A stretch of 64,000 bases of DNA, taken from Catenovulum agarivorans DS-2. GTDB taxonomy: Bacteria > Pseudomonadota > Gammaproteobacteria > Enterobacterales > Alteromonadaceae. Below, in pieces: positions 55,585 to 63,389 of the stretch. The position numbers and the translations under genes were made by a program. Where the stretch lies: contig NZ_ARZY01000021.1 of assembly GCF_000568405.1 (NCBI RefSeq), positions 1 through 64,000 of the forward strand, written 5' to 3'. The first letter of the stretch is position 1, and each line of letters starts with the position of its first letter. The notes beneath the pieces are model-generated. The model was given only the letters and a program-made list of their open reading frames with translations, was not told the DNA's origin and made no database searches.

Positions 55585-56781
55585 TTAGTAGAAAAATTCC
55601 ACTCTTGCTGGCGGCAAAACTGTTGTGATGCGGTTTTCAAGTAAGCTATTATCATCTACTGAATAAACATCAACGCCTGGTGCTACAGCATGTTGCACAG
55701 AAATCCACATTCTATTTTCAGAGTCTAATGCAATATCTGCAACACCTTCTGCGTTTGTAACAGTCGCAGCAACATCACTGGAGGTAATGACCCCAGTTGA
55801 TGGGTTAAACTGATACACACCCGAAATATTGGTAGATGTATTTGTTGTAAAGAAATAGCCTTTTGTGTCGCTGATTATAATAGATTCATTTAGTGTACTT
55901 GAGGTGTTGCCAGTAATATCAGCAGCGGTTAAAACCACATCTAATGAATAGGTTGCCAAATCAATTTTTTCAATTTTACTGAGCAATATATTTTGTGACG
56001 CATCCGCTGGGTAGCTTTCTGCATGAGTTGTTACATACAAGTCATCGGCATAAATCTTCAAACTATCCTGAATCGGATTGGTGCCAGTTAGCGGAATGCC
56101 CTTAACTGTATCTGTTGTACTGGCATTCGTTTCAATTTCTACGCCTGTTTCTACATCAAATACCGCCACATAAGCCGTTTCAGGAGTCCACAAAGCATTT
56201 AGGCGCTGCATCGCAACAAATAACTTACCATCGTGAATTAAACCGTCTGCGGCCGTTGGCTCACCTTTGTTTGTGTTGTAAGCTGAAATGTCAATGCTAC
56301 CAGTAACGAAGTCGGATGCTTGAGTGGCACTTGGGTTGATAATCAATATTTCATCTAAGCCGTAACGAATTACAAATGCTTTTTGTTCATTTAAAAATAC
56401 GATGTCGTAAGGATTGCCAGACGCTTCTTCACCTGCTTGTTGAGTCGAGAACTTGTATGAAGAGCTTTGTAGAGCATCAGCGCTAAATTTTTCAATTGTA
56501 TCAATATTCCATCTACCAATGTGGTACAAGTCATCTTGATAAGTTCTAATTGTATAGTCAGTCGCTGAGTCTGTTACTGCAACACCTGTATTGGTTAGTT
56601 GATATGTGTCTTTATCTGCAATGACTACTTGTTGACCACTAACATAATCAGTTGCAACTGTATGGATAGCAACCCCTGATATTGCTGCTACCTCTTGTGG
56701 TTCGTTGTTATTGTCTGAAGAACATGCTGCCAATAACAGGGCAGATGAAATTAAGCTAACTTTAAAAAAAGCGGAAGTCAT
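55585..56781 (-). CDS. Beta-propeller lipoprotein of the B12-riboswitch operon (BtuG-like candidate)
   Basis: A 398-residue lipoprotein: lipobox LAAC (Cys20), Ser/Asp/Asn-rich tether, then repeated beta-strand blades about 40-50 residues apart (YDIVFLNEQKAFVIRYG, LKIYADDLYVTTHAE, SIIISDTKGYFFTTN, ADIALDSENRMWISVQH), as in YncE- or NHL-type propellers. Its ATG overlaps the stop of the BtuB-like receptor (TAATG), so it is translated with it and put under the same cobalamin riboswitch. In Bacteroides, BtuG is a surface propeller lipoprotein that binds B12 and hands it to BtuB; the same role here is inference, and homology to BtuG is not shown. Confidence 0.78.
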   Translation of the reverse strand: MTSAFFKVSLISSALLLAACSSDNNNEPQEVAAISGVAIHTVATDYVSGQQVVIADKDTYQLTNTGVAVTDSATDYTIRTYQDDLYHIGRWNIDTIEKFSADALQSSSYKFSTQQAGEEASGNPYDIVFLNEQKAFVIRYGLDEILIINPSATQASDFVTGSIDISAYNTNKGEPTAADGLIHDGKLFVAMQRLNALWTPETAYVAVFDVETGVEIETNASTTDTVKGIPLTGTNPIQDSLKIYADDLYVTTHAESYPADASQNILLSKIEKIDLATYSLDVVLTAADITGNTSSTLNESIIISDTKGYFFTTNTSTNISGVYQFNPSTGVITSSDVAATVTNAEGVADIALDSENRMWISVQHAVAPGVDVYSVDDNSLLENRITTVLPPARVEFFY

Positions 56782-58778
56782 TAGTTTATATCCTCAAAAG
56801 TAAAACTAAGTTTAAAAGATCGTCCAATCGCAGGGCGATTTGCTAAGTCTTGATAGGTCTTGTCAAATAAATTCAGCGCTTGAAAAGCGATTCGCCAATT
56901 GCCGAACTTATAGTTGGCATTAAAATCAACTAGCGTGCGTTCTGCCTTACCTTTTTCGGTAAGTATATTGGCGCGGGAAAAATACAGGTCTTGTTCGTGA
57001 GAGGCGCTTAAAGACAGGGTCGTTAATTGGTTAATTTTATAGTTCAATTCTGCCTGGTATTGTTGATGATAAATGCCGGGCAACATTTTATTATTGAATT
57101 GTGTTTTGTCTGATTGGGTATTTGAGTCAATTAGTGCCAAATTGAAAGCTAAATCTAGATTATTCGATAGGGAATAATGTGTTATTAATTCAACACCCAT
57201 AATAGTGGATTTGGCAATGTTTTCGTATGACCCAACACCACTTGTATTAAATATTGCAACAATCGCATTTTCTTGTTCGGTTAAATAAATACTGGGAGTA
57301 AATTGCCAATCTTTAGTAGCGTAATCATAACTTAGTGCCAGTGTTTGCGACTCCTCTGGCATTAAATCATCGTTACCTTTGAACATGCCTCTGTCACCAT
57401 AACGCTCGAACAAAGTGGGAATTCGAACGCCTTTAGCCGCGTTTAAACTAGCTTGCTGCGAAGAATTAATTTGATAACGCACACTAGAATCAAAGGTAAA
57501 ATAACTGTAGTTGCTATGCTTGTGAACGAATGGGTAACTCGTCAATTGGTTAATTTTATTGCGGCTAGAATCCCATAGCTGGTTTATTAATATGTGACCT
57601 GCCCATGCATCACTTTCAACTTCAAATCGACTTCCCAGATGATATTGGGTCTGCTCAGCAATAATGTCACAACCATTTGAACCTGAGCAGCCTTCGCCTT
57701 TTTTTCCTGATGTAGATTGTGATTGAAATTCGCTGTATGACGTTTTTGAATAGGGCGTAATTGATATTTCACCAATGTTTAATAATGTACTTAAATTTAT
57801 TGAGCCAGAATTTGTCTGGTAATCATGGCGCTCGTGAGTGCTGGTATCTGATTCAAATTTATTTAAGAAAATTTCATTTTTTGATTCTGCATTTAATTCG
57901 AAATATAAGCTCTCGAAATAACCATTTCCTAATAACCAGTCGTCAGATATATTCATACGTCTTGTATAAGTATCCAATGAAGCACGATTCTTATCACTAT
58001 TGTTGTTATAACGCGGCAAGTTTTTATTTTGTTCAATAAATTGTAGTGAAGCTTTAATTTTGTGATTACCCATAACAAAGCTGTCATTCAGATATGCGTT
58101 GATTTTTTGGTAATCATTATTGCGTAAGTTTTCAACTTGCGGATTATTTGGTGAATTTAACGGCGTATTCACCAAATAAGGGTAGTTATTACTTGTGGTT
58201 AAATACGATAAGTTTGCAGAAATTTGATGTGCATTTAAATGAGTACTCTTTAGTATTGAAAAGTCTGCCATATCGAAGCTACCAATAGACCCACTGAAAC
58301 GTGTTTGAGCCTTTTCTGGATCAAAGGTATTAATTTTAATCACACCACCAATTGGGGTTATGCCTGTACCGACAGCCTGACTTTTACTAATTTCAATACT
58401 TTGAATTTGATCAAGTGGTAATTGGTTTAAATCGAAACTGCCGAATTGTCCGGAGTTTATCAGTTGTCCATCTATATAAAATTGAACTTGTTTATCTGTG
58501 CTTCCACGAATAGAAATAGAAACTTGATTACCTAAACCACCTACTTGACGAATTTGAATACCCGCTTGCTTTTGTAAAATGTCAGATAAATTGGTATTTC
58601 TACCTAAAAAATCGTCTCGTTTGAGTAAAGTATAGTTGGTTGTAAAGCTAGTTTTTTCACCCACAATTTCGATAATATCTTTCGTTTTGTCATTGGCGAA
58701 TGTATGGGTATTTAGGGTTGTTACTATTCCAAAGATAAATAGACAGTATTTTGCTATTACCGCTAAATGGATGGACAT
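56781..58778 (-). CDS. btuB: BtuB-like TonB-dependent cobalamin receptor
   Basis: A 665-residue outer-membrane receptor. Signal peptide to about residue 28, TonB box DIIEIVG (about 34-40), plug with SDILQKQAGIQIRQVGG and VSISIRGS, barrel ending in FKLSFTFEDIN. The cobalamin riboswitch in its leader makes vitamin B12 or another corrinoid the likely ligand; sequence alone would allow other TonB substrates. Longer than E. coli BtuB (614). AGAGG nine nt before the start can be hidden by a leader hairpin. Confidence 0.92.
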   Translation of the reverse strand: MSIHLAVIAKYCLFIFGIVTTLNTHTFANDKTKDIIEIVGEKTSFTTNYTLLKRDDFLGRNTNLSDILQKQAGIQIRQVGGLGNQVSISIRGSTDKQVQFYIDGQLINSGQFGSFDLNQLPLDQIQSIEISKSQAVGTGITPIGGVIKINTFDPEKAQTRFSGSIGSFDMADFSILKSTHLNAHQISANLSYLTTSNNYPYLVNTPLNSPNNPQVENLRNNDYQKINAYLNDSFVMGNHKIKASLQFIEQNKNLPRYNNNSDKNRASLDTYTRRMNISDDWLLGNGYFESLYFELNAESKNEIFLNKFESDTSTHERHDYQTNSGSINLSTLLNIGEISITPYSKTSYSEFQSQSTSGKKGEGCSGSNGCDIIAEQTQYHLGSRFEVESDAWAGHILINQLWDSSRNKINQLTSYPFVHKHSNYSYFTFDSSVRYQINSSQQASLNAAKGVRIPTLFERYGDRGMFKGNDDLMPEESQTLALSYDYATKDWQFTPSIYLTEQENAIVAIFNTSGVGSYENIAKSTIMGVELITHYSLSNNLDLAFNLALIDSNTQSDKTQFNNKMLPGIYHQQYQAELNYKINQLTTLSLSASHEQDLYFSRANILTEKGKAERTLVDFNANYKFGNWRIAFQALNLFDKTYQDLANRPAIGRSFKLSFTFEDIN

Positions 58779-58786
58779 TAATAAAA

Positions 58787-58837
58787 ACCTCTAAATGCTT
58801 TGTTGTTATAAAAAATTATTGTTACTGAAGCAGAGGT
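58787..58837 (-). promoter_or_regulatory. Candidate Shine-Dalgarno-hiding hairpin of the riboswitch
   Basis: ACCTCTGCTT (58837-58828, minus strand) can pair with AAGC (58800-58797) and AGAGGT (58792-58787), the latter being the btuB ribosome-binding site. The helix has ten pairs with a 4-nt bulge and a 27-nt loop. This suggests control at translation. No U-run terminator is visible between aptamer and gene. Confidence 0.5.
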
Positions 58838-58838
58838 G

Positions 58839-58893
58839 AGGGCATTGCAGTATTCTCCATACTGCACAAATAGCAGAAATATTCCTTTGCCCT
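58839..58893 (-). other. Expression-platform hairpin between aptamer and btuB
   Basis: AGGGCA (58893-58888) pairs with TGCCCT (58844-58839), and inside it GCAGTAT (58865-58859) pairs perfectly with 58853-58847. It directly abuts the sequence that can hide the ribosome-binding site, so it may switch with that pairing. No T-run follows. Confidence 0.55.
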
Positions 58894-58928
58894 AGACAGC
58901 CCACCGCTCTCTGGTTAGATCAAAAATA

Positions 58929-59168
58929 GGCCGGTATCCGGGCTGACAATGTGATAAGCCAAAAGGCTATCAGTAATTAATCCCTTCCCATACTTATACC
59001 AAGTTACTTGAAGATAAATGCTTCAGTACCTGGTTATATCGTACAGTGGATTGATCAACTACACATTGCTCACCGTTGCGGGGGCAGCGTTGGACTCATC
59101 TATAAGATTCACCAAACTTCCCGTTTAACTTAAGGTTTTGATTATTAATCATTACCTTTGAGCACCTA
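58929..59168 (-). promoter_or_regulatory. Cobalamin (AdoCbl-type) riboswitch
   Basis: On the minus strand the leader of the BtuB-like gene contains all the landmarks of the B12 element in order: TAGGTGCTC at the start (about 59168), GGGAAGTTTGGTGAATC, CGCTGCCCCCGCAACGGTGAG, GGGAAGG, and the B12 box GTCAGCCCGGATACCGGCC near 58946-58928. Binding of adenosyl- or another cobalamin is expected to reduce expression of the receptor and the propeller lipoprotein. The subclass was not determined. Confidence 0.94.
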
Positions 59169-59378
59169 AATTTGTCGCGCACTCTAATCATTTTGTAGGC
59201 ATAGGTCAAATCTATTTAAATTTTTTCGCAATAGATGGTGCATATATATTCACATTTAATAGATATATACCCATTTATTTGGCATTTTTTTACCTGAAAA
59301 GTATTAAGTTATAAAATAGTGGTGTATCATAATCGCAACTTATTTTTTAATTTTTACATCAACTAGGAAGCGATCTAC
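59169..59378. promoter_or_regulatory. AT-rich divergent promoter region
   Basis: About 210 bp between the riboswitch start and the aminotransferase gene. It must hold the leftward btuB promoter and the rightward aminotransferase promoter. Runs of A and T give several possible -10 boxes; none was singled out. AGGAAG precedes the aminotransferase ATG by eight nt. Confidence 0.4.
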
Positions 59379-60575
59379 ATGTTTAAACATATGACTGCGT
59401 TACCACCAGATCCGCTATTGGGCATTGCTGCTGCGTTTAAAGCAGACTCTAACCCTAAAAAGGTAGATTTAGGTGTAGGTGTTTATAAAACTGAAGATGG
59501 TAAAACGCCAATTTTAACTTCGGTCCAAAAAGCGTTACAAATTTTATCTAATACCGAAGATTCAAAGTCTTATATTCAAGCTCGTGGTAATCAAGCTTTC
59601 TTAGATGGCATGGAAAAGCTTGTATTAGGTGCTGGCAATGCATTATTAGATTCTGGACGTGTTGAAAGTGTTCAATGCCCAGGTGGAACAGGTTCTTTGC
59701 GCATTGGCTTCGAATTAATCAAACGTGGTAATCCAAATGCAAAAGTTTGGGTGAGTGGTCCAACTTGGGCTAACCATGTTGCTGTAATTAAAGCAGCAGG
59801 CTTAGAAACAGCTGAATATCCTTATTACGACAAAGCAAATAACCAGCTTAAAGCGGATGAAATGTTAGAAGCTTTAGCGCAATTAGGCCCTAACGATGTG
59901 GTGTTATTACACGGTTGTTGTCATAACCCAACAGGTGAAGATTTAACACCTGAGTTATGGACGAAAATTTCTGATCTAGCGGTAGAAAAGGGGTTCTTAC
60001 CTTTCATCGACATTGCTTATCAAGGCTTTGGTGTTGATTTAGAAACTGACGTAGCTGGTGTACGTGAATTATTAAGCAAAGTACCTGAAGCTTTAATTGC
60101 AACATCATGCTCTAAAAACTTTGGTTTATACCGTGAGCGCACAGGTTTATTAACTAGTATTAGTGAAACTAGCGTTTTAGCAGGTGCTGCTTTATCTCAC
60201 ATGTTAAACATTGCGCGCGAAATATACTCAATGCCGCCGTCATACGGTGGTGCAACTGTCGGTATTCTATTAGCCGACGAAGCATTAACAGCTGAATGGA
60301 AAGCTGAATTAGCTGGCATGTGTGCTCGAATGATTGATTTGCGTGCATTATTGGTGAACAAAATTCACGAACGTGGCGTTGAAGAAGACTTTAGTTTTAT
60401 CAATCGTCAAAAAGGTATGTTTACATTCTTAGGTATTACGCCTGAGCAAGTTAAAGCCATTCGTGATGAATATGCTATTTATATGGCTGGTAGCAGCCGT
60501 ATCAATATTGCGGGTGTTTCATCAAGCAATGTTGACTATTTAGCGGACGCGTTAGCTGCGATTTTGAAAAAATAA
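59379..60575 (+). CDS. Aspartate/aromatic amino acid aminotransferase (AspC/TyrB)
   Basis: A 398-residue class I PLP aminotransferase exchanging amino groups between aspartate or aromatic amino acids and 2-oxoglutarate. N-terminal LPPDPLLGIAAAFKAD, the Asn and Asp contacts GCCHNPTG and FIDIAYQGFG, the Schiff-base lysine in SCSKNFGLYRERTG (about 247) and the substrate arginine in SSRINIAG near 374 are standard. AspC and TyrB cannot be told apart reliably by eye. Single-gene unit with its own terminator. Confidence 0.94.
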   Translation: MFKHMTALPPDPLLGIAAAFKADSNPKKVDLGVGVYKTEDGKTPILTSVQKALQILSNTEDSKSYIQARGNQAFLDGMEKLVLGAGNALLDSGRVESVQCPGGTGSLRIGFELIKRGNPNAKVWVSGPTWANHVAVIKAAGLETAEYPYYDKANNQLKADEMLEALAQLGPNDVVLLHGCCHNPTGEDLTPELWTKISDLAVEKGFLPFIDIAYQGFGVDLETDVAGVRELLSKVPEALIATSCSKNFGLYRERTGLLTSISETSVLAGAALSHMLNIAREIYSMPPSYGGATVGILLADEALTAEWKAELAGMCARMIDLRALLVNKIHERGVEEDFSFINRQKGMFTFLGITPEQVKAIRDEYAIYMAGSSRINIAGVSSSNVDYLADALAAILKK

Positions 60576-61357: not shown

Positions 61358-61490
61358 TACTTTAGGTAAGTACCAATGTTTTATGAAGATTTAGTTAAAC
61401 TGACTAAGTTTCAACTGTCTGTAATATAAACGCATTTTTTGTCCTGCAGCATATGTGTTGATTTTTATAACACTTGCTACGGGAAAAACT

Positions 61491-63389
61491 ATGTATAACA
61501 AATCTAAACTTAGTAAAGCTGTTTTAGCAGCACTTTTCGCTACATCTTTTATAACGGGTTGCACTTTAGAGGCTGACACTGATTCAGACGAGGTTGTTGA
61601 AGGTCCACAAGGCCCGCAAGGCCCAAAAGGTGAACCTGGTGAAAATGGCCAAGATGGCGAAAACGGACAAGACGGTACAAATGGTGAAGACGGACTTCCT
61701 GGTGTTGGAAGCTCAACAATTGGTCTGACTCGTTTTGCTACCGTGCCTTTAGGGGCTGAAGTGACAGGTGCATATGTAACTGCCGAAGGTGATCTGTTTT
61801 TCAACGCCCAACATCCTGATGATACAAACACAACAGAAGACAAAAATGGTGATGTAATCAACAAAGGTACTGTTGGTGCTGTTTATGGTGTCAATATCCA
61901 TAAATTGCCTAAGTCTTTCCCATCGTTACCAGTTGCACAAACTCAAGAAGAAATGGAGAGCGTACGTGTAGCGGCTGGTGAATATCATGTACTGGGCCAA
62001 AATGGTGACACATTTGACGGTGACTTACCAAATGGCTTGGGTGTTATTATGGATATTCAAAATCAACAAGCAGTGGTTGAAACCGATATGCCTGATTTCA
62101 ACGGTTTTATTACCATTGATGAGGGTGAAGGTTATTTATACACAAACTGGGAATACATTCCTGGTGGTATGAGCCGCATGCACTTGAAGAAAAATGATCA
62201 ACATCAATGGGACATTTTAGATGTTGAAATGATCGATTTTTCTTCTGTGTATGGCACAGCTGCAAACTGTTTTGGTTCTGTGACCCCGTGGAATACACCT
62301 TTAACATCTGAAGAGTGGACCATAGATGATGATCGAAATCGCACTTCAGCTGGTTGGAATACTCGTACAGACGGTTTCCAACAATCAGGCTTAAATGCAT
62401 ATTTAAATGGCGACCAAGTGTTTCCAAACCCTTATCGTTACGGCTATATCATTGAAATTGAAGATGCGGCATCTGAAACACCAACACCGGTTAAACACTT
62501 CACCATTGGTCGTGTAGAGCATGAAAACTCGGTTGTTATGCCTGACGAAAAAACCGTATATACCACACAAGATGACACTGGCGGTTTATTGCTGAAGTTT
62601 GTCGCTGACCAAGCAGGCGATTTATCATCAGGTACATTATATGCGGCCAAATTAACGCAAGATCCTTCGACTGATCCACTTGTTACAGGTTTTGATGTTA
62701 GCTGGGTTGAATTAGCGCATGGCAATAACAGCCAGATCGAAGCTTGGGTTGCTGAATTTGATAATATTGCAGCAGAAACACCAGCTGCTGACGGTTCTTA
62801 CACTGAGCGTTATTTAACTGTGAAGGACGTTACAGCATGGGCCAACGGCGAAGTAACTTACCCAAGCTTAGCGGATGGCGGTAATGCCACAACCGCAGGT
62901 AAAAACATGGATGATAGAGCTGCATTTATCGAAACGCGTCAGGCTGCGAAAGCTAAAGGTGCAACTGCTGAGTTCAGAAAGTTAGAAGGTATTAACGTAA
63001 ACCACAATCGTGCAATAGAAGCGGTTGAAGGGACAGACATGGTTGCAGATGAAGTGGTTTCAACTGCATATGTATATTTTGCGATTTCAGATATTGATAG
63101 CACAATGACTGATGGACAAGGCGACATTCAATTAAACACCCGAGTAAAAGATTGTGGTGGTGTTTATCGCATGCCGTTGGAAGCAAATTATAATGTTTCT
63201 CGCATTGAACCAGTATTAATGGGTGCAACCATGACATCTGGGGTAAGTGGCGCACAGAAATGTAATGTCAATGAAATTGCTCAACCTGACAACGTTTTAG
63301 TGTTAGATGATGGTCGTATCATGATTGGTGAAGACGGCTCTCAAACCAATAACACTTTGTGGTTATATAACCCTAAAGCTGCTCAATAG
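61491..63389 (+). CDS. phoX: PhoX-like phosphatase lipoprotein with collagen-like stalk
   Basis: A protein of about 632 residues. The signal peptide ends in ITGC (Cys24), an acidic stretch follows, then 12 Gly-X-Y triplets (about 38-73: GPQ GPQ GPK GEP ... GVG). The body fits PhoX/DUF839: CFGSVTPWNTPLTSEE, GRVEHENSVVMPD, VYTTQDDTGG, GDLSSGTLYAAKL, FRKLEGIN and AQPDNVLVLDDGRIMIGEDG. PhoX enzymes hydrolyse phosphate esters with Ca and Fe, but most are Tat-exported; this one has a Sec lipoprotein signal. The frame is open from 61455; ATG 61491 with GGGA six nt upstream is preferred. Symbol by family only. Confidence 0.85.
   Translation: MYNKSKLSKAVLAALFATSFITGCTLEADTDSDEVVEGPQGPQGPKGEPGENGQDGENGQDGTNGEDGLPGVGSSTIGLTRFATVPLGAEVTGAYVTAEGDLFFNAQHPDDTNTTEDKNGDVINKGTVGAVYGVNIHKLPKSFPSLPVAQTQEEMESVRVAAGEYHVLGQNGDTFDGDLPNGLGVIMDIQNQQAVVETDMPDFNGFITIDEGEGYLYTNWEYIPGGMSRMHLKKNDQHQWDILDVEMIDFSSVYGTAANCFGSVTPWNTPLTSEEWTIDDDRNRTSAGWNTRTDGFQQSGLNAYLNGDQVFPNPYRYGYIIEIEDAASETPTPVKHFTIGRVEHENSVVMPDEKTVYTTQDDTGGLLLKFVADQAGDLSSGTLYAAKLTQDPSTDPLVTGFDVSWVELAHGNNSQIEAWVAEFDNIAAETPAADGSYTERYLTVKDVTAWANGEVTYPSLADGGNATTAGKNMDDRAAFIETRQAAKAKGATAEFRKLEGINVNHNRAIEAVEGTDMVADEVVSTAYVYFAISDIDSTMTDGQGDIQLNTRVKDCGGVYRMPLEANYNVSRIEPVLMGATMTSGVSGAQKCNVNEIAQPDNVLVLDDGRIMIGEDGSQTNNTLWLYNPKAAQ

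Follow-up and report, generated by a model that had tools for sequence, protein, structure and literature searches.

Does a vitamin B12 sensor RNA in a gammaproteobacterium control not only an outer membrane importer, but also a lipid-anchored propeller protein that captures B12 for it, as BtuG does for BtuB in Bacteroides? This question is raised by a locus in the 64-kb window that we analyzed, i.e. a stretch of 64,000 nucleotides from the marine bacterium Catenovulum agarivorans DS-2 (contig NZ_ARZY01000021.1, positions 1 to 64,000). The original prediction read the locus as a cobalamin riboswitch operon that pairs a BtuB-like receptor with a propeller-like lipoprotein, in an apparent BtuG-type system. 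Our data confirm the arrangement and support this interpretation, with qualifications: the lipoprotein belongs to a sequence family separate from BtuG, the pair is not peculiar to this genome, and B12 binding, surface exposure and complex formation are inferred.

All elements of the locus are on the minus strand:

58912..59184 (minus strand), cobalamin riboswitch aptamer (Rfam RF00174)
58779..58911 (minus strand), leader between the aptamer and the receptor start codon, presumed expression platform
56781..58778 (minus strand), TonB-dependent outer membrane receptor of 665 aa, probable B12 transporter
55585..56781 (minus strand), lipid-anchored lipoprotein of 398 aa with a predicted seven-bladed beta-propeller, BtuG-like candidate corrinoid-capture partner
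56722..56781 (minus strand), signal peptide and lipobox of the lipoprotein, residues 1-20 (..LLLAAC)
55591..56676 (minus strand), predicted propeller domain of the lipoprotein, residues 36-397, seven blades

The riboswitch matches RF00174 with 73.8 bits (gathering score 31.5, E 2.6e-16) over the full model (1-189), and is the only match at gathering score in the window. It begins 16 nt beyond the right edge (59168) of the originally predicted region. The leader (58760-58925) folds no better than shuffled sequences (z -0.17). The receptor and lipoprotein genes overlap by one base, as TAATG (..GAGGATATAAACTAATGACT..), and a GAGG inside the end of the receptor gene may serve as ribosome-binding site. 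The lipoprotein has the lipobox L-A-A-C with Cys20 and Ser at +2, and a lipobox pattern is found in 37 of 38 aligned members of the family.

The receptor has Pfam Plug (2.4e-15) and barrel (2.6e-24) domains, but its description as BtuB-like needs a qualifier. The B12 receptor model TIGR01779 is its best NCBIfam match, but the score of 105.7 bits is far below the cut-off of 599.7. In this bacterial family even the 135 best BtuB matches (343-460 bits) stay below the cut-off. Several other receptors of the genome score as well as or better than the window receptor on this model, with at least six other places in the genome scoring higher. By sequence, the best PDB match of the receptor is XusA, which also has a propeller lipoprotein partner, followed by E. 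coli BtuB. The AlphaFold model of the receptor (pLDDT 81.1) has PqqU as its top Foldseek match, with E. coli BtuB at ranks 2-5 and Bacteroides BtuB1-3 only at ranks 20-50, so that the receptor is structurally no closer to the Bacteroides proteins than to E. coli BtuB. The receptor presumably has the same task as the latter, which appears to act without a lipoprotein partner.

The lipoprotein reaches no Pfam or NCBIfam cut-off, and only a sub-threshold SGL match was found in it by Pfam at E <= 1. The propeller-like blades of the original prediction are borne out by structure prediction. The AlphaFold model (pLDDT 88.4, pTM 0.87) is a seven-bladed propeller, with the last blade formed by the C-terminal strand plus N-terminal strands. 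In a Foldseek search against 350,542 PDB chains, ranks 1-14 are all BtuG chains (E 8.8e-14 to 7.2e-12; TM by target 0.74-0.81 in 13 of 14, and 0.43 for the longer 8blw_B). These are followed mostly by XusB, a siderophore-capturing partner of a TonB receptor, and the first other propeller, NirF, appears at 6.3e-10. It should be noted that propellers are common (686 PDB matches at E <= 0.001), and that identity to BtuG is only 10-17%.

At the sequence level, the evidence for a link to BtuG is inconclusive. A phmmer search finds no BtuG. In a profile search of PDB sequences, 9 of 13 hits up to E 10 are BtuG sequences (E 0.13-0.32), sharing a blade motif (N/S)P-x9-KAY-x10-IVNP, but these are near-identical constructs and therefore not independent, and two non-BtuG proteins score better than any BtuG (E 0.0021 and 0.015). 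A profile-profile comparison matches residues 46-152 of the window protein to a 117-aa BtuG stretch with probability 73 (P 3e-5), or 51 with a narrower alignment. Pfam and NCBIfam scans of all 38 aligned members gave no family common to them among the 25 of 26 families inspected in each case, and DUF4374, the domain of XusB, was not among the Pfam families inspected.

If the lipoprotein serves B12 uptake, its homologues should lie beside receptor genes and under B12 control. We found 65 distinct loci in Alteromonadaceae, other Gammaproteobacteria and a few MAGs labelled Deltaproteobacteria, Desulfobacteraceae or Bdellovibrionales. A TonB receptor gene is adjacent in 64 of them, and a cobalamin-class riboswitch is present in 53. 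Of the other 12, seven share an operon with btuF, four are cut by contig ends, and one, a distant relative paired with a receptor, shows no B12 link. In the seven, longer stretches, ORF lists and Pfam searches showed btuF, and in several loci also btuC, btuD or an adenosyltransferase, in the same operon, while no riboswitch reached the gathering score there. A search with relaxed threshold in five riboswitch-less loci gave only hits of other families below their gathering scores (two others were searched at gathering score only). A chance neighbourhood is rejected by a sample of the class drawn without regard to neighbourhood, in which the receptor is adjacent in 20 of 20 loci and the riboswitch present in 17 of 20, with two of the three misses at contig ends. 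The lipoprotein is present in one copy in the genome, which together with the near-constant B12 linkage argues against a generic PQQ/YVTN propeller paralogue.

The genome of the window has two cobalamin riboswitches. The other one precedes BtuD/BtuC-like genes and cobT, cobS, cobU, a cobC-like gene and cobQ, with btuF beyond, but no receptor gene. Moreover, the lipoprotein and canonical BtuB rarely co-occur. Across 295 genomes of the bacterial family, 27 have the lipoprotein and 135 canonical BtuB, but only one has both, against 12.4 expected (Fisher one-sided p 6e-7). This statistic does not correct for shared ancestry, and 134 of the 295 genomes have neither protein. The one sampled congener without the lipoprotein has canonical BtuB. 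It is conceivable that the pair imports something other than corrinoid (cobalt, a siderophore or another ligand) and is merely repressed by B12, since XusB propellers capture siderophores (PMC13142918), the receptor's best matches are XusA by sequence and PqqU by fold, and the distant relative has no riboswitch. However, the absence of a receptor gene behind the other riboswitch, the alternation with canonical BtuB within genera and the operons shared with btuF in seven loci make this very unlikely.

Together, our data suggest a model for B12 uptake by this pair, in which we have fairly good confidence. When cobalamin is scarce, the riboswitch presumably lets the operon be expressed, as would be expected from the general behaviour of cobalamin riboswitches. 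The receptor would import corrinoid with energy from TonB. The lipoprotein, translated by coupling with the receptor, would be anchored in the outer membrane, and its propeller would work as a high-affinity corrinoid trap and lid, binding corrinoid in the central cavity of one face and passing it to the receptor. The BtuF-BtuCD-like system encoded under the other riboswitch would then finish import.

The lipoprotein could alternatively be an accessory or assembly partner of the receptor that does not itself bind corrinoid, for example a lid or stability factor, or one that binds a B12-carrying protein. In line with this idea, BtuL and BtuK2, two lipoproteins from B12 operons of B. thetaiotaomicron, did not bind cobalamin (PMC12751083), and a crude test for conservation concentrated on one propeller face was null (p 0.63). 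On the other hand, the nearest folds are corrinoid binders, and the conserved polar residues R90, R139, Y140, Q192 and R193 lie at the ends of the second strands of blades 1-3, among the blades (1 to 4) that hold the hydrogen-bonding residues in BtuG2 (PMC10404256). We therefore consider this alternative improbable.

A further possibility is that the lipoprotein faces the periplasm, sits on the inner leaflet of the outer membrane, takes corrinoid as it leaves the receptor's plug and passes it to BtuF, and thus acts as a periplasmic relay and not as a surface trap. Outer membrane lipoproteins of Gammaproteobacteria probably face the periplasm by default, and Ser at +2 would by the Lol rule predict only outer membrane sorting. 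Lipoprotein and TonB receptor also form two-part uptake systems in Proteobacteria in the case of the Slam-dependent surface lipoproteins TbpB, LbpB and HpuA (PMC7857515), which have another fold and transferrin, lactoferrin or heme carriers as ligands. We found no Slam above cut-off in the genome. The single sub-threshold match (20.8 against 22 bits) lies in an ORF that also matches the TonB receptor model. However, the closest solved folds are lids on the extracellular side (PMC10404256), and 21 of 38 members have a spacer of 70 or more residues between anchor and propeller, with Ig, cadherin or PKD matches in some, which seems more usual of surface display. The genome also already has a BtuF-type protein. 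On balance, the periplasmic relay appears unlikely, though less so than the other alternatives.

Lid-assisted B12 capture has been regarded as a Bacteroidetes trait. No BtuG homologues were detected by BlastP outside this phylum in 313 gut genomes (PMC6143338), and no proteobacterial counterpart was apparent in the titles and abstract beginnings that we surveyed. It appears somewhat more likely than not that the proteins described here are a second, undescribed lineage of surface corrinoid traps, spread through Gammaproteobacteria and alternating with single-component BtuB within genera, either as an ancient relative of BtuG and XusB shared across phyla or as an independent recruitment of the same fold for the same job, with an unknown, apparently Slam-independent route to the surface. 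A phylum sample of 398 genomes gave only the genome of the window and one marginal hit (E 6e-4) in the N-terminal part of the model. In the class, however, the lipoprotein was found in 22 of 369 sampled genomes in 12 families, the named ones mostly from genera known as marine, so that, if the model is correct, a good number of Gammaproteobacteria use a two-part receptor for a scarce vitamin, and related bacteria switch between this and plain BtuB.

The unit lies on the minus strand and is bounded on both sides by ORFs on the plus strand:

59184-58912, minus strand, cobalamin riboswitch
58778-56781, minus strand, TonB-dependent receptor, 665 aa
56781-55585, minus strand, lipoprotein, 398 aa
54810-55565, plus strand, convergent ORF
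59379-60575, plus strand, divergent ORF

The riboswitch matches RF00174 with 73.8 bits against a gathering score of 31.5 (E 2.6e-16). The stop codon of the receptor and the start codon of the lipoprotein overlap as TAATG. The leader between the aptamer and the start codon does not fold better than shuffled sequences (z -0.17), and we therefore do not claim a mode of control.

The receptor contains Plug and barrel domains. Its best NCBIfam model is the B12 receptor TIGR01779, but the score of 105.7 bits is far below the cut-off of 599.7. By sequence, the best PDB match is XusA (62.8 bits), followed by E. coli BtuB (45.9-47.2 bits) and BtuB1 of B. thetaiotaomicron (30.5 bits). The predicted structure (pLDDT 81.1) matches PqqU first and E. 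coli BtuB in ranks 2 to 5, whereas XusA is at rank 7 and Bacteroides BtuB1-3 appear at ranks 20, 24, 28 and 50 among the 50 best matches. Moreover, at least six other places in the genome score higher on TIGR01779 than the receptor in the window (69.1 bits for its best stretch in this search). The receptor sequence alone therefore does not single out B12; the riboswitch and the genome do.

The lipoprotein has a lipobox with Cys20 and a serine at +2. It does not reach the cut-off of any Pfam or NCBIfam family, and a phmmer search of the PDB finds no relative (one chance hit, E 0.37). AlphaFold, given 37 relatives, predicts a protein of seven blades, with the seventh formed from both ends of the chain (pLDDT 88.4, pTM 0.87). 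In a Foldseek comparison of this model with 350,542 PDB chains, the first 14 are all BtuG chains (BtuG1, BtuG2, BtuG3 and the B. uniformis protein of 3DSM; E 8.8e-14 to 7.2e-12, identity 10-17%). They are followed mostly by the siderophore-capturing XusB; the first other propeller, NirF, is found at 6.3e-10, and the Bacteroides B12 binder BtuK1 at 5.7e-9. A sequence profile of the family gives 13 weak PDB hits up to E 10, nine of which are BtuG sequences (E 0.13-0.32). However, these nine are near-identical constructs, and two other proteins score better (E 0.0021 and 0.015). A profile-profile comparison with a 117-aa BtuG stretch (two sequences) gives a probability of 73 and P 3e-5 over residues 46-152 (a probability of 51 with the narrower alignment), which is consistent with remote homology, but does not prove it.

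The lipoprotein was found in 65 distinct loci, here designated by L numbers. A receptor homologue is adjacent on the same strand in 64 of them; the exception, L089, begins near a contig end. In L053, L072 (the same contig) and L088, only part of the receptor gene is on the contig. As judged from mechanically assigned start codons, the gaps between the two genes are at most 129 nt, apart from L088, a locus of a Bdellovibrionales MAG in which the receptor follows the lipoprotein. A cobalamin-class riboswitch above the gathering score is present in 53 of 65 loci. In L088, it is of the AdoCbl class (RF01482) and stands before a 363-aa ORF (520-1611) that precedes the lipoprotein; the other 52 are on the strand of the receptor and within 300 nt before it or overlapping its mechanical start. 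In some relatives, a second cobalamin riboswitch lies near the operon, on the opposite strand a few kb beyond the lipoprotein gene (L034 499-684, L039 61-231, L040 66-241, L041 10388-10569) or, in L033 (4002-4179, 37 bits), on the same strand. The class sample, which was drawn without regard to neighbourhood, gave a receptor in 20 of 20 and a riboswitch in 17 of 20 cases.

Of the 12 loci without a riboswitch, L053, L089, L122 and L136 are cut by contig ends. L042, L044, L046, L060, L070 and L071 (Colwellia and its sampled relatives) and L086 (a proteobacterial MAG) have btuF in the same operon, and L042, L044, L046 and L086 also btuC and a corrinoid adenosyltransferase. These assignments rest on Pfam for ten proteins, from L101 (which extends L042), L060, L070, L071 and L086, and on reading by eye for L102 and L103, which extend L044 and L046. 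In the Colwellia-type loci L101, L102 and L103, the operon comprises an ABC ATPase, a FecCD permease, a corrinoid adenosyltransferase, btuF, receptor and lipoprotein, with no Rfam riboswitch at gathering score in 14-kb stretches. One locus, L140 (2281-5692 on contig C71 of genome G639), shows no B12 link: a distant relative of the lipoprotein (E 4.6e-10) stands behind a TonB receptor, with no cobalamin riboswitch at gathering score in the about 2.3 kb upstream that could be searched. It may be a sister system for another ligand.

The genome (143 contigs) has two cobalamin riboswitches. The other one precedes an ABC ATPase and a FecCD permease that we read as btuD and btuC, although they reach no NCBIfam cut-off, then cobT, cobS, cobU, a cobC-like phosphatase below its cut-off, and cobQ. 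The only PF01497 binding protein, read as btuF, is located just beyond. So, by elimination, the operon in the window is most likely the outer-membrane step of the B12 route. No canonical BtuB is found: the best TIGR01779 match in the genome is 136.5 bits, while relatives that have BtuB score 343 to 460. Across the 295 genomes of the family, canonical BtuB (TIGR01779, E <= 1e-100) occurs in 135, the lipoprotein in 27, and neither in 134. Both occur in a single genome, G280, where 12.4 would be expected (Fisher's one-sided p 6e-7); the lipoprotein operon of G280 is one of those without a detected riboswitch. The p value ignores shared ancestry, but the alternation also occurs inside five genera (lipoprotein/BtuB genomes: g1 7/1, g8 5/10, g26 4/2, g37 1/7, and g39 3/13 with G280 in both), and the one sampled congener without the lipoprotein, G138, has canonical BtuB.

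The lipoprotein is best read as a BtuG-like capture lid; corrinoid binding and a complex with the receptor are inferred. In BtuG2, the corrinoid sits in the central cavity, with hydrogen bonds from blades 1 to 4, and BtuG caps BtuB (PMC10404256). In the family described here, conserved polar residues (R90, R139, Y140, Q192, R193) stand at the ends of the second strands of blades 1 to 3. However, a crude test of whether conservation is concentrated on that face as a whole was null (p 0.63), so that the binding site remains a guess. The mature protein is acidic (51 D+E, 18 K+R), as is the corrinoid face of BtuG2, but acidity is probably common in marine proteins. Surface exposure is inferred from the spacer of at least 70 residues between anchor and propeller that 21 of 38 members carry, with Ig-, cadherin- or PKD-like matches in some. 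No Slam exceeds its cut-off in the genome. A periplasmic relay is the main alternative. An accessory role without corrinoid binding has precedent in BtuL and BtuK2 (PMC12751083).

BtuG has been reported only in Bacteroidetes, by BlastP in 313 gut genomes (PMC6143338). We saw no paper on a proteobacterial counterpart among the titles and abstract beginnings that full-text searches gave, although these were not exhaustive and covered few subscription journals and preprints. As far as computation can say, the protein works like BtuG. We do not, however, classify it as a BtuG, since sequence homology is inconclusive and binding has not been tested.

The family includes a 756-aa version of the lipoprotein with a long N-terminal part in a Desulfobacteraceae MAG (L091 4717-6987), and a version without a lipobox pattern in a Deltaproteobacteria MAG (L087 3449-4687). 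In the window itself, a further plus-strand gene (61455-63389) encodes a protein with a PhoX domain (Pfam PhoX 4e-36) and a collagen-like Gly-X-Y stretch near the N-terminus (Collagen 5e-6, just below its cut-off).
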